64,000 nt of DNA from contig NC_088708.1 in NCBI RefSeq assembly GCF_963576615.1, positions 58,763,196-58,827,195 of the forward strand, read 5' to 3'. This stretch comes from Watersipora subatra (Eukaryota > Bryozoa > Gymnolaemata > Cheilostomatida > Watersiporidae). Positions 2,564 to 50,300 of this stretch are shown in pieces (within the stretch, counting starts at the first letter, position 1; every line of letters starts with the position of its first letter). Position numbers and translations under genes: made by a program. The notes under the pieces were generated by a model. That model saw nothing but the letters and a program-made list of their open reading frames with translations. It did no database searches and had not been told where the DNA came from.

Positions 2564-2634
2564 ACTATGTATTTCTGTATTGCTTATGTGAAGCATCGTA
2601 CGTTTGTATTTCCTGTTTGTGTATGCGCTTTCAG

Positions 2635-5600
2635 AGGTCTTCCAAGAAGCCTTATTGTTGGTGCTGTCATAGCCCTAGTCTCTGGAATGGCTGTCGCACT
2701 CTCCGTCCTTGGCAACAATCAGGGCTCTCTTGTTGGTGTGGCTATATCAGCTTCACTCCTTCCACCGGCTGTAAACTGCGTAGGTTGACTTTTGATTAGC
2801 ATCTGTCAACCCTTCATTCAGCCAGTTTGTTGGACTGAATCCAGTTTTCTTATGCCTTTATACTGTAAACTTCATATTTGATTTTGATAAGCAAGGAACA
2901 AATATCTACTGTCTGATCAAGCAATGCCAAAATGTGGCTAGTAATGGAGACGGCTAGTTGCTCGTAGAGCTACAAGCTCTGCCTGGTATAAAGATCTTAT
3001 CATAGTCTTGCATTTTATGTTGTTTTAGGGGCTTTTATGGGCTTACTCTCTACAATCTGCCATATCTTACCTGGTGATGCCTCAATACAATAACACTGGT
3101 ATGGGGGCTCCTCGTGTCTCTGTGGTAAGTTTTTCATAACTTTTTCTAAAAGGAATGTCTTTCTATGTTTCTTATTAAACTTGCATATCGTGGGCTGAGC
3201 GCAAAATTGTTGTAACTTCCTTTGTTTTATATGAAGTTACAACAATTTTGCGCTCAGCCCACGATATAGTAGTTGATAGCGATATGTGGTGCTTTAATGC
3301 ACCTCATATCCCTATCACCTTATGCTTAGGTGGTTTATATGTTGACATCTCAAACAAGCAATAACAACTCATTTTACTAATAGTTTGGTTTTTTGAAGCA
3401 CCATATTTGATGTGCTAAGAACACTTTGTCCAATTGATTCAGTTTTATGCATATATTTACTTATTTATTCATTTCAGATTTTATTTAGAGATCAGAGCAC
3501 GTAATGTGAGTATTAAAGGAGTAGTTGTAGTTCGAAAACATAATCAAAGACCTATTAACAAAACAAACATTACAAACAACTTAACATGCTCATCTCTAGC
3601 GCTAGTAGGCATTATAATATTATAGTAAAGACTTCCATTATTTGATGAATATTTATGACTATGTAGTTCATATTATCCCACGACCAAACAAGAGTGAAAC
3701 GATTGATTGGGAGAATTATGATAAATGCACATGTGCACACAACTCCCGAAAAATTATCCGTTAACGGCCGTCACCAAATCCTTGCAACGAAATCCTATCA
3801 ACAAATTTAACTATTTTTCAGTAAAGTCGTTTAAGTATAATAATGATATAAAACGCATATAAACCTATTTAAATATGTTACCAAGCCTTTGAAAGGGTAC
3901 CGCAAATTCCTAAAACTAACCCATCTGATCGGATTCTACACAAATAGACAGATTTTTTGGACGAAAGTCGCCACAAAACGCTTGAAAAGCTTAGATTAAT
4001 AAAAGTTAAGACCGAAAATTGAAACGCCGGGCGACAGAGAATAGAACGATAGTCTTGCGCGTTTCAAGAAAAAAAACGTGCACTTTTCACCAGTCTATAG
4101 CATTGTCAAATTGCCGAATGTTTCGGCAATTAATATAGGAGTACAGAAATCGTTTCATTCTTGCCGATTTCAATTTTTTCATTTTCATTTGCCGACACAT
4201 TTGAATACTTTCGTATTTTAACTGATGCCCAACGCAGTGTAAGTAAAGCAACTGACGATGATATTTTTTAACGTTTCTTATGAGATTATTACAATAATTG
4301 ATTATAAGTTTGGATGACTACGGAACAATGACTACGTAGTACAGATTTTCTAAAAACCTATATAAATATCACAACTTCGTGATATTGTTAGCTATGCCAT
4401 TTTGAAATTTAAAAAAATTGTGCTTTGGTTTTGTATTATTATTATATAAATAATATTGGTTATTCTAATAATATCAGTGCATTTTACTTCTAATATTGGC
4501 CAATATTGCATTTCTCTTTTTGCAGGAGAGATATAAACATATAATATTTTCCTTTCATTATTGCTATTTGTTGTATATAATAACACCCACACCCAGTACA
4601 TTACAGCTACTATTGCAGTTATCCTATTTGACTGCTAATATTGCATTTCTCAACCATCTGTACCCTTTCTTTTTCCAATATCACTTTAGTGGTGGGCTGT
4701 ATGACAGTGGAATTTCTAGTTTTAGTTTTATTGTTCTGGACATTTTGTGAATTGATGAGTTTCGCAAAATAACAATTTATTTTATTAAGAGTTAAACAGG
4801 TAATAATAAGCGCCATGTCTGGCTGAATCCAGAGTTGGGGTAAAGAATTGCTTAAAATGGAAATCGAACCCATGACATCGGGCTTAGTAGCTTAACATTT
4901 TCGCACCTCCACGAGTTGACTGCCTTATGACCTTCCCAAATAATTGTACGCATATTTATCCTTTGTGTATTCTCACTTTATCAGCACACCTGACAACCCC
5001 TCACATTGGACACTGGACTGCCAGTGATTAATACAGAGAAACAAAGCAATTGCAGAAAATATTTCACCTATGCTTTACCCATTTACTCTAATGTTAAGGA
5101 AAGTCATAGCACGAATGTACCGATTTGTAATCACTCGATTTAGAAATCAAACTTGTTAGAGCAGTCTCAGACAGGTGATAGTTGGTCAGCTGTCGTTACT
5201 ATTTAGAAGCAGTGCACGCGTAGAGCATTCCGATAAATACTTTACTTTTAAGCTGAAGGTTATTCGACACCATTTAAAATTAAGTTTACTTATAAACAAT
5301 ACAATTATAATATTTCATTCTTCAGCAATGATTTTGATGTTAGTATAGCAAAAAACCAGTTTTTGAAATAAAAATATCGGTGAGAAGATCCTGGCTGTGG
5401 TGTATGGAGGCCGTTTTGTCAGTGAAACGTCTGGTGTATGAATTATCAATGCTGCAGACTAGCAATGTCTGAATGTGGGACAAATAATCATGTTGCCCAT
5501 CACTCTCGTCGTTATTGTTATTACTTTCAGCATTACTTACCATGCATCGTACCAGGCATTTTAATAGCTTATAAGTATAATAAGTAACAAAACTTCATAG

Positions 5601-8600
5601 TAAAAATAAGATTATCACTAGTGGTACTTACTGAACACTGCTATAAGTTATCGGTCTTACGACCACCTTACAGCGTCAATCTTCTGCAAATGTAGAGCAA
5701 GATCAAAGCAGATTGTACGAATACTAAATATTCTGTATAGGTGTTTATGGGTCGCATTAATTTTCAACTGGGGGTTATTAGATTAATAGGCCGGCAGATC
5801 TCATCTTGTGGATTGAGTTAGCAATGGATTCTTCTTTACTTCAACTAGAAATTTACAAATTGTCAAAAGTTATATTTCAAAAACCAATCAGTTTTAGGTA
5901 TTAAAGTTTTGAATGAATAATCAATAGATCGACCGAGTGGGTTCAGTATAATCGTTCCTAGCATTTGTTCCCGGTTGATATTGAGCAAATACCTTTTTTT
6001 GCATTTTTGCAACTTGAAAATGTCGAGAAAACCTAGTATTTGATGAAAATACACAAGTTATTATTGAAACCCTAATTGAAAATGATTTGTGCTACTGAGA
6101 AGGCATTAATTTTTTTGTCGGTTGGTTTGCATTCAAATTGATAAACACTCCGGGCCATCAATATCTGTTCATGCCAAATTGTCATGAAATATTAACAGCT
6201 GCCTTTTCTCTGCAGGTGTACACAATTCCCAATCATACAACACAATTGCTATTTTCAAATAAGGTGTAGTATTTTTACCTTTATGGTTAGTTCAATGTAT
6301 GTGAAGGAAAAAAGAGAACATTTGAGTCGCTGTACACTCTGTAATCCCACTTTGTACTTTCACTTGTACTTGCACTACATACACTCTGTATTCTTATTGC
6401 TCATAATCTGTACTTTCACTGTACATACTCTGTACTCTCACTGTATATGCTCTGTGCTCTCAGTACTGTACTCTCATGTCTACTATTTAACCATATCTAC
6501 TAGTTAATCATGTCTACTAGTTAACCATATCTACTAGTTAACCATGTTTACTAGTTAACCGTATCTACTAGTTAACTGTATTTACTAGTTAACTGTATCT
6601 ACTAGTTAACCGTATCTACTAGTTAACCGTATCTACTAGTTAACCGTATCTACTAGTTAACCGTATCTATTAGTTAGCCATATCTACTAGTTAACCATGT
6701 CTACTAGTTACTCGTATCTACTAGTTAACCATGTCTATCAGTTAACTGTATCTACTAGTTAACCATGTCTACTAGTTAACTATATCTACTAGTTAATTAT
6801 GTGTACTAGCTAACTATATCTACTAGTTAACCGTATCTACTAGTTAACCATATCTACTAGTTAACCATGTCTACTAGTTAACTACATGTATATCGACTAG
6901 TTAACCATTTCTACCAGTTAACCATGTTTGCACTAGCTAGTCACTGACTAGTGATCACACTGTTTGTAGCTGATATAGTCTTTGGATATCACCTGTATGT
7001 ACCAGAATATTACATATTTACAATCAGAGGCGCTCTGCGCTGGGAGGTATTCCACTTTCTATCTGCACTAATTTTGTATCCGTAGCATACACCTAGACCA
7101 TATTTAAGTGTATTTATTGTCATTCATACCTGAACTAATGCGTTACCTATCCTTCGTAAAACTAAAAAGGTATCTTCAAATTTCAAATACCTTGGAAGCA
7201 ATGATGTATTATACCGGGCTAATCATACATCTATGTTACGCTAGTGATTCACAGCTGTCTTTTCGCAGAACTATGTCGTATGTATTGCTCGCTTGCTCCA
7301 TTTGAATACCTATGACTCAAGCACACCTGCTAGCTCTGTCACTAGTAACAATTATTTTAATACTGAGTGAGTTTGATGCATACATTAGTTTTGTCAAGTT
7401 TTCCTTGTTATAAAAAATCTAACTGACTCAACATCTCCACATCTACATATCCCTGAGAGGGAAAGGTTATACATGTTTTATCTAATTTTACTAATGACAT
7501 GCACAAAAAATGTCATTTGAATAAACCGAAATATGATAATAGCTGCACAAGGACGACACAATCACAAACAATAATACAATAGAGCAGTATTATTGTTATA
7601 AATATTGTGATGTTTTTGCAGGCCTAATATATTTGATGGGGGAAAATCATACTATAGGTATGCAATGTATCCTGTGAACTAAATTTTATAGTGTGTTATG
7701 ATTTCATTTCATGTGTAGGTGTGCTTCTCGACAGTTTTTTTTCTGAAAAGGAAGTGCCTACAACATGGACCACTAATAAGCGAAATTTGTCAAAATAAAG
7801 TTTCCATTTCTATTTATATCCTTTTGTCAATGTACTACTCAGGTTGGTTCAAAATGATTTTGCATCTATATCTAATAGCAGGGAACATTTTACCGGAAGC
7901 AATTGTTAATGTGTTTAATTCTCTGTTATGCACATGTGAAAATATCATAATAGTTTTGTACAAGAAAACTAGCAGTCATTATAATAATCACCGAATCAGC
8001 AGAGATAGACTTGTCGTGTCTGTGTCTATACAGACGCGAGGCGCTCTGGGCTTTTTTTAGACAAGCTATTTAAAGCATTTCTCAGATATTTGAGTATCGC
8101 GTGTCATCCTATGTAGCAAGTATTATTCTCTCACCTGTTTTAGGTTACAGCAAGTTAAGATATTAAATGTTCATCGGTGATATGTCATCTCATTAGATGT
8201 CTTGTTTGGACAATCCTTTTCATTTTGATTGCTTGGAATAACTTTTAATAAAAATACAGAGTGTATAAATATTTGATAAAATCGTGTTAAACCCGATGTA
8301 CAGCCCCTTTCTGTAACATTTTCTCATCCAAGCGGTAAAGCAGTGTTACGGTACCACACTTTCATACAGGATGCCGTGGAAATCACTGGGGATGATATGA
8401 CTTGTGACCTTCTCTATAACAACACCTACGTACCCTACTTTACTTGTAATATGGCCCAAGAAACTTTCTACCTCGGCCTCATTAGTCTTCTGCTCACCGT
8501 TCTCAACATAGGCATCATTGTTGCTGCCGCCATGTGCTGTCTCAAGGTGTGTATGCATTGCATTGTATGTAAAGTATTTCTCTATTGATGTGGACACGCG

Positions 8601-11600
8601 TGTATAGCTTAGCCGGGCCTATGGGAGGGACTTAACATAATACTGCCTGATAGTTGCAGAATATTGCGTGAGCCCCCTGTGGACATAAAGATCTAGGAGT
8701 TGATTACAGAAGCTAACTTGGCTGTACTTTTCTATGCTTCGTGATGCGTATCTCTAAAGAGTTACGCTACATAACACAGGCCACGGCATACTTTTTAGTG
8801 TGCCTTTTACATAGCACAAGTTCAGTTTTGTTAATATATAATAAATATATTATTAACAAATATTACAAATAAATATATTGTTACGCTGGTTTTTAGCCAA
8901 AGTTAAAGTGGTTTTGGTTACAAGACATGGTAGAACTCTCCTTTTAAAAGGAAGTGTGTCTTTAAGGATGCTCAAAGCTTAAACCAGAAATAACATCTGT
9001 TTGGTTTGATTTAGGTCAAAACCAATTGTAGATTTGCCTCCCTTGGTGCGCCCTTTATCTGATAGGACGGTGAAATGATGACTTCTGTATATGTTTTAAT
9101 TGCTAAGTAAGAAATACATTATGTACGAGTTGATAGCGAAAAATTGCAAGTTTTGTCCGTTTTCATGTTTTAGTGGAGTTAAAAATGGAATATTTTCATG
9201 TGTTTTTCAGTCATATTTAAACAAATTTGATAAAAATATAAAGACAAGTAATATTAAATATTGTGGACTTTAGAATTAATGCCATAGCAATATAATATTG
9301 CTCATATTAATAAACAGCCACACACAAACTTGAGTTCTTGAGCAATACACATCTAAAGTATTAGTATAAGGAAAAATGACAAGTATTAAGTGGTAAGATA
9401 TATTTTGATGAACAAAATGATTTGGTAATGTTGCACTACCCTCGTATTAATTCTTTTAGTTGGTCGAGTAGATTGTTGGCTACATAAATATATAACAACA
9501 GACTTTGCATTGTCCTTGACCATGCTACTGCCTAAGCACAAGCATTCCAAACATATATTATTTGTTTCATGAGGAAATTACTCCTGATTTTATTAAAATG
9601 AAATTGTTTGTCAAATGATAATTAGGGCAAACTTTTTATTGACCTCAAAATCAGAAAAATTGACCTTATTGTTCTGGGAACTTGGCTTTATTGACTTTAA
9701 ATTTAAAAACATCATTTTCTAATTAATTAACAAATTGAGCTGTCCAAGTGTAGTTTGAAAACATAACATTAATACATGTAGCTACATATTGGATGCATTG
9801 CATGCTGCTGGTAAGAACTTTTGCGTTGACTGGTTTGGCTGTTCCACTTGTTTCTTGTGCTTGGCAGTTTTCTGATGGCTTTCCACACAAAATCGTTTAG
9901 AAGACTTTACCACACAACTGCAAACTTTACAATACAGGTCATTGCCTGATGTCTTGGTGAACTCGGTAGGAAACTTTTATAATCTGACGAACCTTCCCAT
10001 GAGCTGATTGCTTAGCTTTTGGCATCTTTTCTAGTGTAAAACTGATTGCATACTAGTCATATAATTGGGCATGCTATAAATATCAACAAGTGGCTTGAGC
10101 AGACTTCATCATGCCATGTTGACTCATCCTATACATAATGAATAAAGCAAGAGGAGAAAAATCACCAAATTTCCATTTTGGAAAGGTAAATACCCAAATA
10201 CTTTAGTAAAGGGAAATTCTGAATTCCTAGTATGCATAAAAAAGGAAAATTGACTCAAAAATATAAAAATTGACCTAAAAGATAAAAATGGACGTAAAAG
10301 ATCAAAATTGACAATTTATTGACCTTATAACTTGGCTATTTATGTACCTAGGGTGCTCATATGTGGTATTTTTGTGTTTTAAAGTGATCCACACATGTAA
10401 AAAATTAACTTTATTGACAAAAGTTTGCCCTAGTGATAATTTTGACTTGACCGCTATCACATTTTTTAAGAATGCATTGGCTAAAGTTGTTGCGTTCATC
10501 GTTTAACACCAATGTACTGTTTTAAATATATGCTGAATGGTATTATAACTCAGCCTTCAATATCCTGTCAGATTGACACACAATGCTTTGAATCGACAGG
10601 TAAAGCAAGTATCTCCCAGAGCTAGTGTCTCTAATGAGCAGGTGTTTTGGACCAAACACATGAAAGTAGCAAAGCACTACAATACAACAGTGCGCCCATC
10701 TACAGACTACTGGACAACCATGGTTAAGGAAATGAAGGCCAACTTGAAGGTACTGTCATTAGATGTCTTTATAATGTGTTTACATGTGATAGAACATGAT
10801 TTGAACTCTAATTGAGGTGGTCAGTGTAAATTGTAGGTACTGTTGCGGAGTATCATCAACTCTAGATGACGCAATGTCATCAACTATAGATTTGGAGCGT
10901 GTTTAAACATGTTGAAAGCTGAAATATTTATCTTATGTAATACTCTAGCATTCGGCCATGCTTTATGATATACATGTACAAGTGCGCTGATATGTTCAGA
11001 CAAGTGCCGCCCTTTAATATACAACAGAGCTATTTCTGCTGATAAATGTGTCAAGAGAATGTCTCATCCTTCAGGTTTTATCCAAAGCCCTTCAAAGGGT
11101 GGGTCAGTGAGAGCCGTTTGTTTACAATGTAAAAAATGCAAGCCATACTAGTTAATGATGTTTAGCAATAATCAATCTACATCCTTCTAAAACCAAAGTC
11201 AGAATGATCTGTCTAGTATTATCTGTAGGTTACAGATGAAGAAGCAGAGAGAATCCTAGATGATGGTCGTAATGCAGTGAGTATCTGTTGGTTACAAACA
11301 CTCTTTTTAAATACTTTAAACTGTGTGTTCCATTATTTTCACCATCCCTACTAGCATCATGTGTGACAAGTGGCAGAGCTACAAGGAGGAAGTCAACAAC
11401 AATGAGTTGTGGGAAAAAGTTGATCGAGTGAGCATTTTAGCGTATAGATTTTCATGTCGTAGCTATCAAAGTCGCAACTCTAACAAAGCAGCGAAGAGCA
11501 ATGGAAAAGCAATGGAAACAACACTTTTTTTGATATAATATTTTAAGTGAAATAAAGGCATTCTATAAAGCAGTCATCTTTATAAGGTTACTAATCATAT

Positions 11601-14600
11601 AGCATATAGTCAAACCTCGACTTACAAAGCTAATCCAATATTGCTCACATGTCGAAAACATTCCATATTCGAAGAAATATTATAAAAATTAAATTGCATT
11701 GTGTTTGGTTCGTTCTAGTGCCCAATGAACAATGATAAATACTTAGTAACTACATATGGAACTGAATCAAAGCTTTATCTAAAACCATGTAAAAAATAAA
11801 TGTATTGCCATAGATAATGTTTAAATTTAATATATATCAATCAAGAAAAAGGTGTTTTATTGGTTATTCATCTTACACCCTGTGAATAAAATTACAGGCT
11901 CTGCAAAGCTTAAGTTCGGCATGTGAAAAGAGTGATAAAAATACCTGGCATAATTTCCTCTAACTTACACTGTGCATGGTTTTAATTAACCTAATATATA
12001 TACACTTTATTATTTTACATTTTATTGTGAAATTGTACTAGTTTATTTACTTTCACTCACAAAAATGAAATTTTTGAGAAATATGTTGCTATAGTATGTT
12101 GGAAATTACTTTGTATGTTAGAACAAATATTTGCTAAAATTTCATGTTGTTCATCGAAAAATTGATATGTAGAGGTGATTGTTAGTGGACCTTTGATTGT
12201 ATAGGTGATCACCAAATGGCTATCAAAAGGTTTTCTCGTATTTCATTTGCCACAGAAACGGTTTGGTTATTAATTTTATTATAAAGATGAATAAAAACCA
12301 CTTTGGTGAATAAATATGTTTAAAAATTCGTATTTCGCTTTTTTGTAAGGAAAAAAATGCACAACTTTGAATTGAGCTGCCTTAGGACAACTGACAGCGC
12401 TAGGAGTCGAGTTGTAATTCTCTGTTAGCATGCTCGCACTTGTGCTCTTAGCTCTGTTCATCACCAAGTTAGATAGAGTATCCTAAACAAATCCTATATG
12501 TGCCTTGGCTTGCCTTATATATTTGACAGTGCATTGCAGGTGGTCCTTTTATATGACCAGTATGGTTGGAAATAGCATCATTACGCCTGTCTGACAAGTT
12601 CCTCCTAGGATTGTGACATTGGATTTAAGTCAGTGATGTCTAGTGCTGTATGTATGCTCATGAATATCAGGTGTGCCTGTTGGCATTGGCAGACTGTGAG
12701 ATCATAATTTACTGAGGCGAAAACACGCATAATGTTGTGTTGGATCCGGAAAGGGTTAGAAGTTTATAGGCTTTTATAGTAAATTACTAAAATATCCAAT
12801 TTATTAACAAATGTTAAGATATTTGATCTTGTTCATGATTGTTTCTGTAGGTACATCTTTCAGGATTACACCTATATTCATTAATACAGAATAGTAGTAG
12901 CGCTAGCAGTGAGAACTTATATGTCATTGAAATTTTTCACAATACCATCACAAAACTCTATGGAAAAAGTACATGATGTGCATCAGATTGCGATGTATCG
13001 TTGCAAACATTTTTCATGCATATACATGAAGGTATCTTTAGTTTTACGTTTTATACTACTGTTTTTGCAAACTCTTATTCTCACTATATAACACTTTGAC
13101 CCTACTGTTTCACTGTCATACTGTTTCACTATATAGCACTTTGACCCTACTGTTCCACTGTCATACTATTTCACTATATAGCACTTTGACCCTACTGTTC
13201 CACTGTCATACTGTTTCACTATATAGCAATTTGACCCTACTGTTCCACTGTCATACTGTTTCACTATATAGCACTTTGACCCTACTGTTTCACTGTCATA
13301 CTGTTTTGTGTCTAAATTTAGCTTGTGTCAAAAGAGTTCACTTTTTATTACTGACCGATCAGGTGGGTCTATGACAATATTGGCAGCTAGTTGGTTGCAT
13401 CTTACATTTCCGGCCATGGCTAGCTGTGAATGCTCTAGAGATTGTCTGCCAATTTGTGAGATTTGTCTGTCCTTTTGTTTGTTGCATCTTTATTAAGCTC
13501 CTCAACTTTTTTGAAGCTGTCATTTTACGTAAGATTTTTTAGACTGCCTCCTTGGCTTGAAGTTATGTATCAACCGCATGTAGCAAGGCCTCTACTAACT
13601 ACATGTAGAAATATCTGTATCAAATAGAAAGAAAATTTGAATCCGCTAAACAGTAGAAGTAAATTCCCTCCTATTACAAACCTCTATTGTTACTCTCTCA
13701 GTAGTCTAGGAAAGAAAGTGCAATATATAATATTATATTCGATATTTATTTTGTATTTATATACGTACATGTATGTATGTATATATTTATAGCGTGTTGG
13801 GAAAGTCTGGGTACATATTTTTCTTCTATCAGTTCAAGAGTGTTAGCTGAAGCGTGTAGCACGCGTATTTTAAACAATCACCATTAGATATTGGCAGGTG
13901 TAATAAGTATGTGCACAATTATTACATAGTATGGCAAGTATGCCAAGTGGCGTAATAGATAGCACGCCAATCCGCAGAACAAGTGCTTCTAAGTTCAGTT
14001 CCTGGGCGAAGTGGTTTTTTCTTTCCTAAAACTTTATCACTATACCTGGACGTACGGATGACAGACTAACAAATGAGAGTTACATACCCATATACATGTA
14101 GATATATCTTAATAATATGCAACAGGGGAATCTAGTGTACAACTAGCATACGTTTTATTTATTACAGAGGCGCAAAAATCCATGGGACCTTCCAGAAACT
14201 TTTCTGCAGCGGTCAAAAACTCCAGATCAGGGTTTTAGACAAAGAAAACTGTCACTTGGCTCCCAATCAGCAACCGGCAATACCAACTTCTCTCGGCTTC
14301 TCTCTCATCAGCCTAAGCTAGAAACAGTGGTATGTGAGATACTTCTCTCTCATGAGCCTAAGCTAGAAACAGTGGTATGTGAGATACTTCTCTCTCATGA
14401 GCCTAAGCTAGAAACAGTGGTATGTGAGATACTTCTCTCTCATGAGCCTAAGCTAGAAACAGTGGTATGTGAGATACTTCTCTCTCATGAACCTAAGCTA
14501 GAAACAGTGGTATGTGGGAAACTTTTCTCTCATCAGCCTAAGCTAGAAACAGTGGTATGTGAGATACTTCTCTCTCATGAGCCTAAGCTAGAAACAGTGG

Positions 14601-17600
14601 TATGTGAGATACTTCTCTCTCATGAGCCTAAGCTAGAAACAGTGGTATGTGAGATACTTCTCTCTCATGAACCTAAGCTAGAAACAGTGGTATGTGGGAA
14701 ACTTTTCTCTCATCAGCCTAAGCTAGAAACAGTGGTATGTGAGATACTTCTCTCTCATGAGCCTAAGCTAGAAACAGTGGTATGTGAGATACTTCTCTCT
14801 CATGAGCCTAAGCTAGAAACAGTGGTATGTGAGATACTTCTCTCTCATGAACCTAAGCTAGAAACAGTGGTATGTGAGAAACTCCTCTCTCATGAGCCTA
14901 AGCTAGAAACAGTGGTATGTGAGATACTTCTCTCTCATGAGCCTAAGCTTGAAACAGTGGTATGTGAGATACTTCTCTCTCATGAACCTAAGCTAGAAAC
15001 AGTGGTATGTGAGATACTTCTCTCTCATGAGCCTAAGCTAGAAACAGTGGTATGTGAGATACTTCTCTCTCATGAACCTAAGCTAGAAACAGTGGTATGT
15101 GAGATACTTCTCTCTCATGAGCCTAAGCTAGAAACAGTGGTATGTGAGATACTTCTCTCTCATGAGCCTAAGCTAGAAACAGTGGTATGTGAGATACTTC
15201 TCTCTCATGAGCCTAAGCTAAAAACAGTGGTATGTGAGATACTTCTCTCTCATGAGCCTAAGCTTGAAACAGTGGTATGTGAGATACTTCTCTCTCATGA
15301 GCCTAAGCTAGAAACAGTGGTATGTGAGATACTTCTCTCTCATGAGCCTAAGCTAGAAACAGTGGTATGTGAGATACTTCTCTCTCATGAGCCTAAGCTT
15401 GTAACAGTGGTATGTGAGATACTTCTCTCTCATGAACCTAAGCTAGAAACAGTGGTATGTGAGATACTTCTCTCTCATGAGCCTAAGCTAGAAACAGTGG
15501 TATGTGAGATACTTCTCTCTCATGAACCTAAGCTAGAAACAGTGGTATGTGAGATACTTCTCTCTCATGAGCCTAAGCTAGAAACAGTGGTATGTGAGAT
15601 ACTTCTCTCTCATGAGCCTAAGCTAGAAACAGTGGTATGTGAGATACTTCTCTCTCATGAGCCTAAGCTAGAAACAGTGGTATGTGAGATACTTCTCTCT
15701 CATGAGCCTAAGCTAGAAACAGTGGTATGTGAGATACTTCTCTCTCATCAGCCTAAGCTAGAAACAGTGGTATGTGAGATACTTCTCTCTCATGAGCCTA
15801 AGCTAGAAACAGTGGTATGTGAGATACTTCTCTCTCATGAGCCTAAGCTAGAAACAGCGGTATGTGAGATACTTCTCTCTCATGAGCCTAAGCTAGAAAC
15901 AGTGGTATGTGAGATACTTCTCTCTCATGAGCCTAAGCTTGAAACAGTGGTATGTGAGATACTTCTCTCTCATGAGCCTAAGCTAGAAACAGTGGTATGT
16001 GAGATACTTCTCTCTCATGAACCTAAGCTAGAAACAGTGGTATGTGAGATACTTCTCTCTCATGAACCAAAGCTAGAAACAGTGATATGTGAGATACTTC
16101 TCTCTCATGAACCTAAGCTAGAAACAGTGGTATGTGAGATACTTCTCTCTCATGAACCTAAGCTAGAAACAGTGGTATGTGAGATACTTCTCTCTCATGA
16201 ACCTAAGCTAGAAACAGTGGTATGTGAGATACTTCTCTCTCATGAGCCTAAGCTAGAAACAGTGGTATGTGAGATACTTCTCTCTCATGAACTTAAGCTA
16301 GAAACAGTGGTATGTGAGATACTTCTCTCTCATGAACCTAAGCTAGAAACAGTGGTATGTGAGATACTTCTCTCTCATGAGCTTAAGCTAGAAACAGTGG
16401 TATGTGAGATACTTCTCTCTCATGAGCCTAAGCTAGAAACAGTGGTATGTGAGATACTTCTCTCTCATGAGCCTAAGCTAGAAACAGTGGTATGTGAGAT
16501 ACTTCTCTCTCATGAGCCTAAGCTAGAAACAGTGGTATGTGAGATACTTCTCTCTCATGAGCCTAAGCTTGAAACAGTGGTATGTGAGATACTTCTCTCT
16601 CATGAACCTAAGCTAGAAACAGTGGTATGTGAGATACTTCTCTTTCATGAACCTAAGCTAGAAACAGTGGTATGTGAGATACTTCTCTCTCATGAGCCTA
16701 AGCTAGAAACAGTGGTATGTGAGATACTTCTCTCTCATGAGCTTAAGCCAGAAACAGTGGTATGTGAGATATTATTAGAGGTTCCAGCGTAGGAATACTA
16801 CTATAACAACAGAAAGTGAAACTAACGTAGAATAATATTGTCTACTGCCTTGATTTGAGTGCAGTTAGTGTTTGCACATTAGATGGACTGGTAAGACCGT
16901 TCTTCGGTTACCCGTATCTTCCTGCATATTTGCTTGCAGTTCATGCATTTTAATCTTGTTCACTTCAAAATCTGCTGATGATGTAAATTTAGTTCATGCG
17001 TCAAATATGGGCTTTATCAATGGTACAGTAAACAATTTACAATTACCTGCTCACACATTTTTTCTTTACATATATTGTAAAATTTCATCAAATATTTGTC
17101 TCATCATCCAAAGTAATTTCCATCATTGACATTCCAAGTTATTGGGGAAAGTTTGCCATTTTTGCATGTCTATCCATATGTACACATTGCTCATTTATTT
17201 AGTCCATGTTATATCTTCATTACCACCGCTACCAGTACCTGCGCATCATCCATATTGGACATTCTGTATCGCCAAGGCTACGTTTCCCATGGGTCTGTTC
17301 TAGATGAAGTGACAGGATAAACCTTTTTTATTGCCTATTACTTTGTTTACTTCAGCATAGTTTAATTAAATTTAGTTTTTCAAATAGTTTTAAATAATGT
17401 ATTTATTTTAATTTTATATGTTATTGGCTGATGTATTTATCATTGTTAACTTTTTTTAGCTGTAGAGCTCATTAAATGAAACATGCTGTAGTCTTATAAT
17501 GAAATTCGCTTTGTGGTGGTTTTGGTATACGTAGCAAGTGTCAAACTAGATTAACTTTGTTTGTCGATGTTAGACTGTAAACATACATGCAAATGCTTTT

Positions 17601-17714
17601 AAGCTGGAGCTCTATTTATTACTTTAGGAGTTTGAGAAGAGGTCTTTGGAGGTTAAAGGAAGATTCAAAGTTGAAAAGAAGAAACAAACGTCAACACAAA
17701 ATTCTCTAGCCTGA
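2635..17714 (+). CDS. DUF389-family multi-pass membrane protein, 5'-partial
   Basis: Supported exons are 2635-2779, 3029-3124, 8344-8546, 10600-10749, 11229-11276, 11371-11427, 14168-14329 and 17628-17714 (stop TGA 17712-17714). The first two encode the DUF389 signature: a hydrophobic segment with SLVGVAISASLLPPAVNCG, then LLWAYSLQSAISYLV. The 8344 exon gives another membrane span (LGLISLLLTVLNIGIIVAAA). The remaining exons form a charged tail typical of the animal members. Every junction from 8546 onward is phase 0. The 3124 and 8344 ends do not join in phase, so at least one exon (length 3n+1) between them is unidentified. Acceptor AG at 11369-11370 was chosen because the nearer tag at 11352-11354 would give a stop. 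DUF389 proteins have no established molecular function. The 45-bp array starts exactly at the 14329/14330 donor, so isoforms with many repeats are possible. Confidence 0.8.
3185..3267. repeat. Perfect 35-bp inverted repeat with 13-nt loop
   Basis: Positions 3185-3219 are the exact reverse complement of 3233-3267 (arm begins ATATCGTGGGCTGAGCGC), separated by 13 nt. The hairpin lies in a DUF389 intron, 60 bp after a splice donor. It could be a small palindromic mobile element or an intronic hairpin RNA. No mismatches are visible in the stem, which is unlike most animal microRNA precursors. Confidence 0.85.
3677..4725 (+). mobile_element. Non-autonomous dispersed element, copy 1 (starts CCCACGACCAAAC)
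   Basis: Homologous along its length to 38833-40210. Shared words include CCCACGACCAAAC at the left, 'taaagtcgtttaagtataata', 'catttaaatatgtta'-like stretches, CTAATATTGCATTTCTC, and 'gggctgtatgacag' near the right. In copy 2 the right part holds TTTGGTCGTGGG, the inverse of the left end. Here it is degraded to TTTAGTGGTGGG. Similarity continues about 30 bp past that inverse, so the true right boundary is unclear. No coding capacity is visible, and the element is intronic in the DUF389 gene. Confidence 0.65.
4726..6329. other. DUF389 intron, no recognised feature
   Basis: AT-rich intron sequence. A 48-bp stretch at 6217-6264 is flanked by a good acceptor and donor and is open in phase 0, but nothing in it resembles the protein family and it does not fix the downstream phase. 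I see no other gene or repeat. Confidence 0.5.
6330..6930. repeat. Minisatellite, about 17-bp unit (TATCTACTAGTTAACCG), about 26 copies
   Basis: From about 6480 to 6930 the 17-bp unit repeats with point variants (ACCGT, ACCAT, ACTGT). Each unit contains ACTAGT and GTTAAC, two self-complementary hexamers. Just upstream (6330-6475) a less regular repeat alternates 'tgtact' and 'tctcact' words. Intronic in the DUF389 gene; no evidence of function. Confidence 0.9.
6931..8343. other. DUF389 intron, no recognised feature
   Basis: The unidentified phase-restoring DUF389 exon must lie somewhere between 3125 and 8343. A 36-bp stretch at 7622-7657 has splice-like borders but reads a stop in phase 0 and would not correct the phase. 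No repeat or RNA gene was recognised. Confidence 0.45.
8547..9614. other. DUF389 intron, no recognised feature
   Basis: AT-rich intronic DNA between the membrane-span exon and the charged-tail exon. I see no gene, tandem repeat or clear transposon end in it. Confidence 0.5.
9615..10440. mobile_element. hAT-type MITE with 8-bp target duplication
   Basis: The element runs 9623-10432 (810 bp). It begins TAGGGCAAACTTTT and ends with the inverse (AAAGTTTGCCCTA). The flanking octamers are atgataat (9615-9622) and gtgataat (10433-10440), matching at 7 of 8 positions. Termini of the form YARRG and 8-bp duplications are characteristic of hAT elements. No transposase is encoded. The interior carries several 'aaaattgac' and 'ttgacc' words at both ends, in opposite orientation. 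It sits in the intron between the 8344 and 10600 exons. Confidence 0.75.
11428..13089. other. DUF389 intron, possible decayed pogo-like fragment
   Basis: A segment near 11606-11640 starts with 'agtcaaacctcgacttac', which resembles pogo/Tigger-type terminal sequence, and partly inverse words occur near 11905-11930. The rest is featureless AT-rich DNA. Confidence 0.35.
13091..13312 (+). repeat. Minisatellite, 45-bp unit, about 5 copies
   Basis: The unit is CACTTTGACCCTACTGTT followed by (c/t)cactgtcatactgtttcactatatag and repeats from 13091 to about 13312 with few changes. Because 45 is a multiple of three, a spurious open frame runs through it. It lies in the DUF389 intron just upstream of the exon that carries the other 45-bp array, but the two units are unrelated in sequence. 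Confidence 0.9.
13790..14115 (+). repeat. SINE-like dispersed repeat, copy A
   Basis: The tail 'tcactatacctggacgtac' followed by 'ggatgacagactaacaaa' recurs at about 30940-30985 and 45095-45140. The block 'gggaaagtctgggtacatat' near 13799 recurs near 30856. A tRNA-like stretch at about 13945-14010 (AAGTGGCGTAATAGATAGC, then AGTTCAGTTCCTGGGCG) resembles A and B boxes. It ends about 50 bp before the next DUF389 exon. Confidence 0.55.
14297..16771 (+). repeat. 54-copy, 45-bp minisatellite made from an exon end plus 5' splice site
   Basis: Fifty-four uninterrupted 45-bp units occupy 14330-16759 with no length change ((16760-14330)/45 = 54 exactly). They follow a 33-bp partial unit that is the end of the 14168 exon and precede a 12-bp partial. 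The unit encodes VCEILLSHEPKLETV in the reading frame of that exon, so the frame is open from 14168 to the TAG at 16790-16792. Each unit contains GTG|GTATGTGAG, the splice donor that ends the exon in the first copy, and a pyrimidine run CTTCTCTCTCAT followed by CAG, GAG or GAA. The array is therefore either coding (875 codons unspliced) or intronic DNA with dozens of donor sites. Most variants are GAG/GAA and CTA/CTT, with a few amino-acid changes. Confidence 0.95.
16793..17627 (+). other. Intron tail before the last DUF389 exon
   Basis: AT-rich sequence between the 45-bp array and the final exon. Short open frames here show no recognisable protein. No repeat or RNA gene was recognised. Confidence 0.5.
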
Positions 17715-17827: not shown

Positions 17828-20147
17828 ATATAACTCAGGGGTGGGGAACCTACTTGGTACCGCGGCGGCCCCGCATGAATTGCATTACATTAATGGTGGG
17901 TCGCAACATAAACCTGACATTAAAATTACACACAAAAACACTCAAAATGCACAAGTGATTTTTATTGTAGCTCTCAGTGAGATGGCTGAAAGTTCTTCTC
18001 TTTTGTGAGGCCTGCGATATCCGCTGAAGTCGAAGATGCTGCAATTCGTAATTGCTGTCCAAGGTTTTCATCCGTTATTCTGGAGCAAAACCGATTCTTT
18101 GCGAAGTTCAGTTTCGAAAAAAATTGTTCGCAACATTAGGTGCATCCAAAGAGAGACGCATATTTAAGAGCATGTTTCCGCAAGATGGGAAAACCATCAG
18201 TAGTTAAGTATCGTTGATAAAACCCAACCAGTGGAGTGCTAAGATACATACTTTTCAATGTATCATTAGTCTGAAGCTCAATTATTTCGTGTTGCAAGTT
18301 ACTAGGAGCATCAGCTGCAACTACATTTAGAGGAGTGGCAACTCCATTTGCTTGCTTTTTATTACCTGGAATCTTTTGCCAAATGTCTCAGAAATCTTCA
18401 CACACTCAAGAGCATAATTCATTGGGGTAGATGGTTTTTGTTCTTGTAGGGATGAAAAGTGTGTAGTGTTATTATTTTCAAGTTGTACTTTTCACAGCTC
18501 TAATTTTGTTTCAAACGATTTCACTGCTGCAAACATGGAGTTTAACAGCTGGATAGGTCCCTGCAACTTTATATCGAGTTTTGACAAATCTTTGCGGATA
18601 TCAACTATAAATGTGAGATCACATAACCACCGATTATCACTCAGTTCAACGACATGATTTCCTTGCATATTCATGAATTGGCCGATTTCATTTCGTAACA
18701 AATAAAATCGTGTTAACATTTTACTACGACTCATCCACTGAACTTCGCAATAGTAAATAAGGTTGTGGAAATCCGCATTCAAGTCTTCCATTAATTTTTT
18801 AAATAGGTGGCTATTTAGACCTCTGCCTTTGATAAAGTTGACGCACTTTACTACTGTTGACATGACGTTACGCAGTTGAAGTGACTTTGCACACAAGTTT
18901 TGTTGGTAGATGATGCAATGGCATACAACTAAGTCATCTGCAGCTCTTTTTGAGTCAGCTCTTTTTTTAGAAGTGCTGTTAATCCCTTTTGAGAACCAAC
19001 CATGGCTGGAGCACCAGCTTAATTTTTCAAACGGAAGATTGAATTTTCCCATTGCCAAGAGAAGTTTCTTAAATAAGTCCTCGCCATGTGTAGTTCCATG
19101 CAAGGATTCCAATGACAACAAATCTTTTTGTATTTTAAAGTCAGAAGTTACCCCTCGAATGAAGATCGCTCGCAGGGCTTTATTTGGTATATCTGTAGCG
19201 TCATCGAGAGCCAATGCAAAAAAATTGAAATCTTGAGCTTTATCCTTCAGATCCTTTTCAATATCATCTCTCGTTTCCTGAATCTGACTTGAAACTGTTC
19301 TTCTCGATAGACTTAGTTTTTCAAAAACGGCGACTTTCTCTGGTGCTATCAACTTAGCAGCTACAACAATACATTCTTTGACGAATTCTCCTTCGATGTG
19401 TGGTTTCAGCTTTTTCGCAATTAGGTCGCTAATTTCAGTACTCGTTTAAATAATATCATTATTGGTCTTGCAATACCTTCTCAAAACAGTTTTCTGTGCA
19501 TTCAAATCCCTCTTAAGAATGTCAATCTTATCCTGTCAAGCCTACCATGTCAACTTTTTAAGATTACCGTGGAAGGAATCAAAATGGCGCTGCAGATTTG
19601 ACTTTTTCATTGCTGCTACATGTTTGCCACAAACAAGACAGACAGGCTTTTCACTAATCTCGACAAAGAAATAAGAGTTTTCCCAATCCTTGTTGAACAT
19701 TCTACCTTCATCAACTATCTTTCTCTTTTTAGCCGAAGCCATTTTGCAAATTCCGACTTTTATCGCAATTTCAAAAAATATTGCGACCTACTCAGTAACT
19801 AAATGCAGTTTGCGTATTGTGTCGTACTAACCTGATGCCTATGCGATTGTGATGTCAGTAGGTGTGTATGGGCATGCATGCCGTGTGTGCCCAGCCATGA
19901 GACAGCATTGGCCCAGCACGCGAACTAGGCGAGAAAAGAAGGCGAGGTTAGTTATAACGTTTGTTAAGTCACAAATAGAAAATTATGCCATTACAAGGCT
20001 GCGTGAGAACGATGTTGATATGAATGCCAAATGCTGGCAAGGTCATCTCAAGAAAATATTTACAACTTATGAACGCGGGCCACATTAAAACGTCTCGCGG
20101 GCCGCATGCGACCCGAGGGCCGCAGGTTCCCCTCTCCTGATATAACT
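17828..20147 (-). mobile_element. hAT (Charlie-like) DNA transposon, decayed, with perfect 8-bp target duplication
   Basis: The element spans 17836-20139 (2304 bp) and is flanked by identical octamers ATATAACT at 17828-17835 and 20140-20147. The left end is CAGGGGTGGGGAACCT; the right end, read inward, is CAGGAGAGGGGAACCTGC. Both match the hAT terminal form. It encodes a broken transposase on the minus strand. It inserted about 120 bp downstream of the DUF389 stop codon, possibly inside that gene's 3' untranslated region. The intact duplication together with several coding breaks suggests a moderately old copy. Confidence 0.92.
17974..19742 (-). pseudogene. hAT transposase pseudogene (BED finger, GTF2IRD2/ZBED5-like)
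   Basis: The amino-terminal piece (19742 down to 19542) starts MASAKKRK and holds a BED-type zinc finger: CLVCGKH with two later histidines in RHFDSFH. The central piece (19352 down to 18492, extending upstream to about 19445) has hAT landmarks: LALDDATDI at the first catalytic aspartate region, CSSHGWFSKG, CHCIIYQQNLCAK and a VQWMSRSKML block. The C-terminal dimerisation part is still recognisable on the minus strand at about 18220-17974 (FPILRKHALKYASLFG, then TDENLGQQL) but is split by frame changes and stops. There is an in-frame TAA near 19445, and the segment between it and the zinc finger is out of frame. The protein is unlikely to be functional. Confidence 0.88.
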
Positions 20148-29200: not shown

Positions 29201-32200
29201 CAACCCCGGGTTGCGATTGCCCTGTTATACAGTGCAACCCCGGGTTGCGATTGCCCTGTTATACAGTGCAACCCCGGGTTGCGATTGCCCTGTTATACAG
29301 TGCAACCCCGGGTTGCGATTGCCCTGTTATACAGTGCAACCCCGGGTTGCGATTGCCCTGTTGTACAGTGCAACCCCGGGTTGCGATTGCCCTGTTATAC
29401 AGTTTTTGTGCCTTACGATGTTTTTTCGACTTCGCCATACAAAATTTTTTTCGTCATTTGATATCAACCAAAGTTACTCTTGAAATTAAAATTTGGCAGT
29501 CGGTGTGCTGAATACCTCATTAACAAAACCGGAAACAGATAAACGATGAAATTTTAGACAATGACAAAGTTTAAGTTTAGTAAAATACATACTAAAACTT
29601 AGCTTTGTGTTTAGTAAGCTAAATTCATTTAAGTTAAAATTTAACGTTTAAATGTTATACGTCTGCCTTGAAGCTAAGAACTCCCTACAGTATGTACAGC
29701 ATCTCACTTTTATACTAATATGAGTTTTGACCTCTTTCTGCCTTTTTCGTGACCCAAGCTTGATCTCCAAATCCCGTCACATTCAAAGTAAACCGCATGG
29801 CATCCCTACTAAAACTGGCTTATTCAATTCTTTATGAAATGCACACCGCATTGATTTTAATCATAAAAATATTTCTCATGAAACAATTTGTGATCATTCG
29901 GCATGCTTGTACATAAAGGCAGAAGTGCAGGTAATAACAAACACAAATTATTTTTCATATCTCTATGTTGCTGGTTATCCATTCTACTAACTAAAGAACA
30001 CTATAATTTGGGTAAAACATTAATAGCACATTTATATAGACAACTAGCAATAACAAGTGAAGTATAATAAGTCTAGCTTAAACTTTTTAAGGAAGTGTAA
30101 GATAAAAGTTTACAATATTTATGCAGTAAATAATTTTTTCATATCAAACTATATTTAGATCTCTCTCAGATATATCCATATTACTAATCACTCAAGTTTA
30201 TTAGGTAACTATTCCATTACCCGGGCAACTCCAAGTATTTGGCTAGTACATATATTAATTTCAGTGTTTGTCATTTGCTGGTCTGTCATTTGTGTGTCCA
30301 GTTATAATGATACAGTTATAGGAATGTCAAGTCCACTTTGCACTAAAATTGACCTCTGAACCTCCAACAGACAGGCTTGCTATGCATTGGACTACAACTC
30401 CAACTGGCATTACTATGGAATAGCTGTGCACATATGCACCTGCAAATGTTTAATGCCGATTGGTCTAATAGCACGCTTCAGCTAGCATGCTTGAAGATCA
30501 TGATTGCATGAGAGATCATGACGCAATCTTTTTTCTCTAACGCAGGCTTCAGAGGGATGTACACGGCTCTTATTACAGTAAATAAGTTACTCGAATTCAT
30601 TGAGTAAAAAAATTTAGCTGATTAAAATAAATTTTCTATGCAAAAATTTGTTATTATTTGTTTCAACACCGGGCATTCAGCAAGTATTTTCTAAGATTGC
30701 ACCTCACAGGAATTGAACTCGTACATTCGAATGTACAGATGTTAGGCGAAGCACGCTGCCGCTAAACCATGCAGCCATTGCTGGGAATAATTATGTTTAT
30801 AATGGTTACACATCATAATCTCTCAAGGCACATCGTACTGCAAGCGTTGTTTTTGGGGAAGTCCAGGCACGTATTTCTGTTCTAGTAGTTCCAGCAGGCT
30901 AGTTCAAGTTCATCTAGTAGTTCAAGCGTGCATATTTTAACCAATCACTATAAACTGGACATACGACAGACAAACAAACACTTAGATTTATATATAGATA
31001 AATAAATATATATGTATACGTATATATTTAAATAAATATGTATACATATTGATATAAGTATGTATAAATTGTATATACATGTTATTGATATAATATATAA
31101 TATAATAATGTTTATCAAAATTATATTATATGTACATAATTATATACATATGTGTATGTATTTATATATGTATACATGTATAAGGAAGTATGTTGAGATC
31201 ATTGCCGAGTGTTATTCTGTGTGTGACGTAGGATAAATTCATTGACTACCATTTTATCTATTAAGAAATCTTCTACGCATCAGATCACTGTGTCCATTTG
31301 TCTACTTATCCCATTATTTACTGATGTCATTTTTCATCGAGCCCATTACATATCAATCAGGATTGAAGATGTATAAAAGGCAACTTGGCATCATTTTGGG
31401 CTGTAAATTTATGAGAAACCTTATAGGCTGATGTTTTATAGTTGCACTTTGGCTGTATAACAGGCATAATAACAGTACTTGGCCTTGCTTTTTGTCTCTG
31501 AATTGCCAACTATGCAACTAGACATTTCTACGATTTCATTGGAATTGCATTTGAATTCATCTTTCTTCCATTCCTATAGTCTCTCCCAACCAACATTCTC
31601 TTATTATATATTGGTACTGACCTAGTAGAAATATAGCCAGAGGTGCTACATTTTTTACAGACATGGAAGACACTGGTAGTGGTCAACCAGATATGTTTTT
31701 GAAGAATACAAGAGTACCAAACATGGAGTGCAATGGCCCGCAGTGTTATTGTGTGTATGACAATGGAACAAAGGTCTCAGGCTCTGACGCATACGCTCAG
31801 AAACCCGACTGCAGTCCATATATTGGCATCCCTTTAAGAGAAGCTGCTAGTACCACAAAAGCTCCTCTGTCTACTAAACATACTGATGGAGTGCCGGTGG
31901 CTGACTCCAAAGGTACAGCTTGACTACGCTTAGAGCTTTAGTTGACTTTTTCTTCATTATGGAAGCCTCAGTTTGGTATTTTCCTTTTTTTTTAATTAAA
32001 TTGTATCTCGAGTTCATTTTTAGTAAAGTTCAATAATTTGATAGCGTAAGAGCCAGGTTTAGCCTAGAGTCCAAGCAGTGCGTGAGGCCAAGCCACTTGA
32101 GGTTTCAAGTTGCATATCTGAAAGGCTCCTAATTTCCTCCGCGAAACGCTCGGAGAACCCTTGAACTGAGAATGCGCCTGATTGATTTTTACAACTGCTT

Positions 32201-47300: not shown

Positions 47301-50300
47301 TTACTAATTATTTCCATGGTGTTGCAATCAAAGTTTCTAATGAAAAAATCTAAACTTGGAGTTTGAAAACGGACTTTGATATGAACAGAAACAACGAACG
47401 AATTGATTATTATTGATGTAATCGAGTCATTATTAGTAGTTCGGTGGATCCTTTTATGCTGATCAGTTTCAATTATGGGTTCTCAAAAAAGTGAGAATGT
47501 CAAACAGTACCGGTCAAATAAAAGTGATGTTCAATTAAAGAGTAGTACGTCCTATTTTTCAACCCTTCTCTCGTTGTGCGCTCAAATAGAGGGGGTGCTC
47601 AAATAGGAGTGGTGTTCAAATGAAGGTGGTGTTCAAACACAGGTTTTACAGTATTTATATTTATGTACATATGTATGTTGTATAAGCAAAATTTACATTT
47701 ATAAAATTTATATTATGTATCATTTGCTCATTTAGTGTACAGTTCTTGGTGTGAAATGTTTAAATAATAAAAAACGGTTTTTTCAAGTTTTGGAACAGAT
47801 TAAAATCATATACATTATTTGTGATGGAAATAATTATTTTGAAATTTGAGAATTTGTTTCTGAAATAGATGACAGATGAAAACTCAGGTCCAACTGTATT
47901 TCATAAGTGGCTACTGCCTCACACTTGCAGGTTTTTATCCAATTACCCACCTGTGAGTAAAATGGCTGCAAATAATGAGTATTCACTAAATATAAACTAT
48001 ACACATTTTTAGAATCCTAAGGCATCCCAACTCACCACTGAACCGTCGAGTGGAGTACGAGCCAATAAGGTCGGTAGTCCATATGCCGACGTGATTATAA
48101 CAGCCGTAATAAACCAGCAGACTTCATTTAGTAGACTACTGTCACTAGTTAGTTCCGTTCTCCTTGCAATCAGACTCGGGATAGGGCAGAGAAGATAGCA
48201 TATGAGGACAAACATAGCCCACCAACCACTAAAATACAAAATATTAACAAAGCCCAATACGGGGACAAACAGAATAGCGAAACAACATTTGAAGTGGGAT
48301 ATTCTCAAAAAAAAAGATTGATTAGCATCATCACTTACTTGTCATACAAAGCACATCCTACCACGAGCAGCGTGATTCCAATGGCAGCGGCGAATGCCAA
48401 ACCAATGATCGCTACAAAAGGAAGTTAAATGTAGAAGTAAATGAACTGGGCAGAGTGCATCAACAGAAAAATTATGCAATTGATACAGACATTGGGTAGG
48501 ACAAAACATCTTTGATACAAAACCAAGTTTCTAGAAAGTACCACCAAGTTCAAACTCTATTCTAGAACACAACAGTTAGTATGACCTCTTTGCTAATTTA
48601 GTTGTTAAACACTTAATTACACCACAAGATCAAGTCATTTACAGCAAGTTGCAAAACCTTTTCAGAAACATACATTTTATAAAAGAAGATAGCTTTTATT
48701 CAAGAGGTTGTCCCTAAGCCAGTTTTTATCTTTAGCATTACCTTAGCGTAGAGCTTTTGAATAAACAAGAATAGCTCACATATAAGCCCCAGCGTGACCT
48801 TTCGGTTACGTAAACATGAAAAAGAGCATTAAAACTGGCACATCGTGTGGCTAGTACGTTACACTAACGACATTGTGGACAATGAGCATATTTCTATCTA
48901 GTGCGTTTAACTGCTCCTAAAGAAGGAGGAAAGATTATTTTTTACAAGAACAATGACACCATTTAGTTTATGCTAAAACTAAAATCATACTCGCTCCTCT
49001 TAACTTTAGCACATACAGGGCTGTGATTCGCAGCTGCCCGTACAACGGCGCATAAATGTCTGGCCATGCAGCAATAAATCAGGTTGTTTTTATGTTTCTA
49101 GATCATATAAAAATAAGGACTTCCCCTTTTTCTGTTGTCATAATATGGAGATTTTTTGCAATGAAACCAAAAATTACTCCAATCTGCCTGACCATCCAAT
49201 ACATTCCTACTTCTACCAAAAAAACACTACCCTTATACTAAACACCTACACTTTGCCAATTTACATTATAAACAGTGCGAAAAGAGCTTTTTTTTCGATA
49301 CACATAATTTACTTGACTATTTTTTGTTTTTGTTTCATGATCTAATTTGTTTAGACCGATAATGACCAGTGATAATAAGAGTTATTATTATCTATCTTTA
49401 CCCTTTTCAAAATCTTCAACTAGTAACATAACTTGATTGAGTGCCATAAAGACCCCTGCTTACTTTGACAACCGCTTCTATTATTCTGCTGGTAGTATTC
49501 AACCTTATAGCAACTCTAGTCACTGATAATCTGGTTTAAACATCTTCCTCTGCTACTATAGTTCGAACAACTATTCCTACCACTATAATCTAAACATTTA
49601 TCCCTACCACTATGGTCTAAACAACTATTCTTACTACTATAGTATAAACATCTATCCCTACTACTATAATCTAAACATCTATTCCTACTACTATAGTCTA
49701 AACATTTATTCCTACCACTATGGTCTGTGAAGAGCCTAGTAAGCATTGCCTCACATTCCTGTAACTGCTTTGGCCATTAGTTTTTGCGCACTCTGGTCAC
49801 CCTCAGTGGTGATTCATGGACAGTCAGCCTGTCCTCTGCACCGGTTGCCTTAGGTGGTCTAATGATGATGACCAATGATAGCGCTGCTTTTGGGTCACCA
49901 AATTTTGTTTGTTGCCGCTCTTTTTCTTTATCTTGTTTTTAGTTTAGTTTTAGAGTGTAAGCAGATAAGACTTACCTGACATATTTACAGCTATTTTTCA
50001 CAAATAGCGAATAGACTAAAGAATGTGACGCTAGTATGCTAGTAATGTGATTACGGAGGCACAAGGTTAGTGAAATAGATGTTATACATAATATGACATT
50101 TTGCTTGCTATTCTGTACTATTTGTCAGTTTTCCTGCATGTTATATGTTTCTACATAATGCTTTATACATTTTATGCTTTTTACTTTGTGTAGTAATATT
50201 CCACTAATTAGAATGCTTTTATCCATTGTATAGGTTTCACGATCTACATATCTAAAATAGACCAGTGAGCTATAACTCCAAACTTATCACGCTAGTATCT

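Follow-up and report, generated by a model that had tools for sequence, protein, structure and literature searches.

A minisatellite of 55 units across an exon-intron junction of a DUF389 gene in the bryozoan Watersipora subatra

When a tandem array repeats the end of an exon together with its 5' splice site, are the additional donors put to use, or is the array discarded with the intron? This question is raised by a minisatellite in the cheilostome bryozoan Watersipora subatra, which we analysed within a window of 64,000 nucleotides (the whole stretch of DNA under study). TRF placed the array at 14297-16771 on the forward strand, with a period of 45, 55.0 copies, 97% matches and 0% indels. 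Read unit by unit from one haplotype, it consists of 55 units of 45 bp that run head to tail in strict register without an indel, with the consensus CTTCTCTCTCATGAGCCTAAGCTAGAAACAGTG (exonic part) followed by GTATGTGAGATA (intronic part) and a mean pairwise divergence of 3.0%. Unit 0 is made up of the final 33 bases of an exon (14297-14329) and the initial 12 bases of the following intron (14330-14341) of a DUF389 gene. The initial annotation had described 54 exact repeats of this junction at a 45-bp spacing without indels. The spacing and the register hold, but the repeats are not all exact. The GT of the donor is intact in 54 of the 55 units (53 of the 54 downstream units in the unit alignment), the exception being the unit starting at 16052, where AT replaces GT at 16085; the exact 15-mer ACAGTGGTATGTGAG occurs in 51 of the 55 units, and one unit with a donor has ACAGCG ahead of it. 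The base 21 nt before the exon end of the unit is C (CATCAG) in units 0, 5, 9 and 32, and G in the other 51. A local four-unit pattern is present, in which units 4-5 equal units 8-9, and no lag stands out as a higher-order period across all 55 units.

From 14168 onward the frame meets no stop within the array and ends at a TAG at 16790-16792, giving 874 residues and a stop, in agreement with the 875-codon frame that had been reported. On the 3' side of the array (...GAGATA/TTATTAGAGG), unique sequence follows directly behind the intron-derived part of the last unit, so the ancestral intron, judged from the two flanks of the array, probably began GTATGTGAGATATTATTAGAGG.

The splicing of the host gene was read from a public W. 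subatra protein, P0121 (724 aa, "uncharacterized protein", "isoform X1"), which was located in the window by tblastn and exact mapping as seven exon pieces (Table 1). All 288 of the 288 aligned residues are identical to the window exons. The DUF389 domain scores 105.6 bits in P0121 against a Pfam cut-off of 23.9, which identifies an animal DUF389 protein, and the exon starting at 2633 gives by itself a Pfam DUF389 match of 40.3 bits. In P0121, donor 1 (14329) is joined to 17628 in phase 0, with LLSHQPKLETV directly followed by EFEKRSLEV, and the last exon, from 17628, starts GAGTTTGAGAAG. Of the array, only the exonic portion of unit 0 is represented in the protein. Ahead of the junction, its residues (SRLLSHQPKLETV; RLLSHQ) match unit 0 alone, the corresponding residues being KLFSHQ in units 5 and 9, ILLSHQ in unit 32, and HE-containing in the rest. 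The exons 14168-14329 and 17628-17711 of the public model thus bear out the earlier proposal that it was the exon's own junction that was repeated, and every intact donor is, as had also been stated, in frame with the acceptor before 17628. A relative from Bugula neritina, P0001, stops short of the array region. A guessed extra exon at 11377-11427 (SYKEEVNNNELWEKVDR), between 11276 and 14168, was rejected: P0121 lacks it, and when it was added the score with a profile built from 113 relatives rose from 515.0 to 520.6, with 200 shuffles giving a mean of 520.0 and a maximum of 526.0.

Table 1. Features of the DUF389 gene and the junction array (positions in the window)
Feature	Position	Strand	Remarks
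DUF389-gene exon	2633-2779	+	P0121 mapping; first base boundary approximate
DUF389-gene exon	3029-3124	+	P0121 mapping
DUF389-gene exon	8370-8546	+	P0121 mapping
DUF389-gene exon	10600-10749	+	P0121 mapping
DUF389-gene exon	11229-11276	+	P0121 mapping
Penultimate exon, DUF389 gene	14168-14329	+	Public model; contributes its last 33 bases to unit 0
Donor 1 and first 12 intron bases	14330-14341	+	Inside repeat unit
Unique sequence behind last unit	16772-16792	+	Open array frame ends at TAG 16790-16792
Last coding exon, EFEKRSLEVKGRFKVEKKKQTSTQNSLA	17628-17711, stop 17712-17714	+	P0121 mapping; C-terminal RFKV motif
Tryptic peptide type expected from translated array units, VVCEILLSHEPK			

The repeated donors are nearly uniform in sequence. 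The 9-mer GTG/GTATGT is common to 53 of the 54 intact array donors. By donor matrix it ranks within the best 2.2% of the window's GT sites and third among the six mapped window donors; by U1 duplex energy it takes a middling rank, with 8.3% of the GT sites outside the array beating it. Both ranks are rough. By the matrix, 78 GT sites that score at least as high as the array donor are found in the 61,525 bp outside the array (about 3 per array length) versus 54 inside.

If the units were translated, their substitutions might be expected to carry a mark of it. Among the units there are 15 variant types, 4 synonymous and 11 non-synonymous, with no stops; without selection, 24-28% would be synonymous and 2-4% stops, and the probability of at least 4 synonymous types is 0.52-0.64. 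With the low power of only 15 types, the variation looks as expected of an uncoded array and neutral at the protein level. The open frame by itself is no evidence of coding, a caution already voiced in the initial annotation, because 35% of random 45-mers of the same composition, if repeated in tandem, remain free of stops in a given frame. Strict spacing was considered as a sign of selection and set aside, since several other arrays in the window also have 0% indels. A search of proteins of about 481-1529 aa with words from the exon and the units (E 0.01 or better) returned P0121 alone, which has no units, and among 236 proteins (the best of larger match sets) neighbouring and unit words occur in P0121 only. 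P0121 represents a cluster of 2 sequences merged at 90% identity, in which an isoform carrying as many as about five additional units could hide. Furthermore, short reads from internal donors would map ambiguously and might be discarded, so the public model may miss such donors. The locus had been proposed to act as a protein-length dial, by choice among the donors. The dial finds no support in P0121, the sole public protein listed for the gene, which uses donor 1 alone, nor in any other listed protein, none of which has an array peptide, nor in the units, which, at low power, show no coding constraint. A dial as a major product is unlikely, and the other reading offered at the time has better support, with donor 1 in use and the array as an expansion within the intron.

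Minisatellites at exon ends are known from two human genes, the only ones with this anatomy that we recognised among the matches listed in partly available sources; other cases may exist. The repeat unit of IFI6 (6-16, G1P3) is 12 bp long, compared with 45 bp in W. subatra. The likeness lies in an exon-end minisatellite that supplies multiple splice donors: in IFI6, the available part of the source reports two downstream repeat units as donors and three mRNA species (PMC4526556, citing Turri et al. 1995). IFI6 is a different gene in a different phylum, and use beyond the first donor is reported there, whereas in W. subatra such use is only a candidate. In human CBS, the 31-bp VNTR c.1444_1467+7(16_21) runs from the last bases of exon 13 into the first of intron 13, in 16-21 copies. 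By its name the unit has 24 exonic and 7 intronic bases, and the excerpts available describe a constant length with substitutions only (PMC2630376, PMC1395315, PMC5188458); a larger number of repeats is reported, in the available text of one of them, with lower enzyme activity (PMC5188458). As far as these sources go, CBS resembles the W. subatra array in the unit that straddles exon end and intron start and in its constant length. It differs in its 16-21 copies, against 55 units, and in frame: the 31 bp of its unit cannot be divided by 3, so that downstream CBS donors would shift the frame, whereas every intact donor in W. subatra keeps it. Ordinary intronic minisatellites share with the array the head-to-tail arrangement, the neutral-looking substitutions and, in the public model, removal with the intron, but the W. 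subatra array takes in the end of the exon together with its donor. With a first unit composed of exon end and intron start, and a donor repeated downstream, it matches the IFI6 and CBS junction minisatellites in kind.

We consider it very likely that the locus is a junction minisatellite in which donor 1 is the real exon end, the array is removed with the intron, and the near donors are used at a low level at most. A 45-bp segment across the exon-intron junction (33 exonic and 12 intronic bases) would have been tandemly duplicated and have grown to 55 units. Unit 0 would still serve as the real exon end, with splicing from 14329/14330 to 17628 and removal of the array as part of the 3.3-kb intron. 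Being local copies of one another, the donors hardly differ in sequence, and position should decide among them. An exon using donor k measures 162 + 45(k-1) bases, up to about 2.6 kb, and the length of the exons from far donors means that exon definition would favour the nearest few. On this analysis the next donors may plausibly see some use, which would amount at most to a short ladder at low level (+15, +30 residues) from donors 2-3, as reported for human IFI6. We infer the order of events, the position rule and any use of donors 2 onward.

A chance origin of such an array is easy, because arrays are common in the window and many would be seeded over donors across the genome. Apart from this one, 20 tandem arrays were found in the 64 kb (21 in all, from 31 TRF rows merged by hand), and those with at least 5 copies number 7, or 9 counting the shorter-period rows of 30992-31080 and 49537-49726. 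With the window taken as typical, an effective target of 30 bp, arrays placed at random and a single transcript for each gene, on the order of 250-320 arrays of at least 5 copies would be seeded over a donor by chance genome-wide.

Other repeats were observed in and near the DUF389 gene. A second array with a 45-bp period (13081-13306; 5.0 copies, 96%, 0% indels) but a different consensus is located about 1 kb upstream, within the preceding intron. Another intron contains a 17-bp array of 26 copies at 6475-6925 (CATATCTACTAGTTAAC). An inverted repeat at 3178-3274, also intronic (42 nt, 13-nt loop, 93% complementary), looks like a small foldback element. About 120 bp past the DUF389 stop codon, a transposon-like element at 17828-20147 has 17-nt terminal inverted repeats that are 88% complementary, and is flanked by an 8-bp duplication, ATATAACT, at 17828-17835 and 20140-20147. 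Of its minus-strand open frames, the one at 18492-19445 has no match in Pfam and the one at 19542-19787 matches the PF18658 zinc finger with 31.6 bits; the element is presumably a hAT-like transposon.

Other readings of the array differ in how much of it would reach the protein. Appreciable use of many of the 54 donors, which would yield graded proteins with extra 15-residue units, is unlikely. The phase that the intact donors share with the acceptor, their common 9-mer with its high matrix rank, and the two downstream donors reported in the available part of the IFI6 source (PMC4526556) are all compatible with it, but the only protein returned by the length-limited search has no unit, and the units carry no sign of coding constraint, at low power. 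We hold it to be very improbable that the array is a coding repeat, with an isoform reading through all 55 units to the stop at 16790-16792 and losing the RFxV-type tail encoded by the last exon. Such a form would account for a frame that is open over the whole array, and the stop just behind the array means that retention would swap the C-terminus. Against this, unit variation is neutral-looking, more than a third of random units would be open as well, a product of about 1,516 aa falls inside the length range searched and none is listed, and from the stop to the last exon there is no AATAAA, only two ATTAAA.

The units could also be 18-nt in-frame microexons (PKLETV), with the pyrimidine tract CTTCTCTCTCAT(C/G)AG acting as a 3' splice site. 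Pyrimidines make up 82% of the tract preceding the AG in unit 0 and 71% in unit 1, compared with 71% at the acceptor before 17628, and the 18 nt from AG to donor would keep all combinations in frame. However, CATCAG is found in only 4 of the 55 units, with CATGAG in 35 and CATGAA in 16, so that 16 units have no AG; GAG is a weak acceptor, a single-unit intron would be a very short 27 nt, and P0121 shows no such exon. This arrangement appears exceedingly unlikely. Hardly more credible is a copy number produced by the assembly. Assemblers can collapse or expand arrays of near-identical units, but this array is just 2.5 kb long, its unit variants are scattered, and it contains the local four-unit pattern (units 4-5 and 8-9); the assembly, as characterized in the part of its publication available, is PacBio HiFi with QV 63 (PMC12902671). 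The same publication names an alternate haplotype assembly (GCA_963576605.1) and poly(A) RNA-seq from specimen tzWatSuba4 (BioProject PRJEB62167). The junction minisatellite spliced from donor 1 is the reading that we retain.

Under splicing from donor 1, the protein ends with the last exon, which carries GRFKV near the C-terminus of P0121. Relatives were collected as 236 proteins from overlapping match sets (the best 120 of 436, the best 120 of 414, and 1 of 1), of which the 122 shorter than 540 aa were left out. Among the remaining 114, which reach 540 aa or more and include P0121, 47 have RFx[VIL] within their final 110 residues; of 600 stretches of 110 residues taken elsewhere in these proteins, 13 have it. 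With P0121 left out, the strict form RFx[VI] is present in 39 of these 113 relatives, versus 3.3% of shuffled tails; the motif-bearing proteins are related to one another, and neither count represents independent events. Because many animal relatives have RFx[VIL], the last exon 17628-17711 is independently supported. According to the accessible text of one source, RFXV/I is the motif recognised by the CCT domain of SPAK (PMC4512625), which makes a link between the animal DUF389 family and WNK-SPAK/OSR1 signalling, suggested by sequence, worth testing. Several of the near-identical in-frame donors might be used position-dependently as a length-and-tail switch, with a 15-residue ladder placed before the RFxV-type tail and read-through dropping the tail. 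We regard this as quite improbable; if true, array length would set the distance of a SPAK/OSR1-type docking motif from the membrane domain, or its presence.

As a junction minisatellite, the W. subatra array provides an invertebrate case of an arrangement familiar from two human genes, with more donors than the 16-21 of CBS and without the frame penalty. The effect of position in 5' splice-site choice is usually studied with artificial minigenes, and this locus is a natural test of position-dependent choice among near-identical donors. Since all but one of the intact donors share the 9-mer and nearly the same surroundings, their relative use would show the effect of position alone. If donor 1 alone is used, the locus would show how great an advantage lies in being the first among many equal donors.
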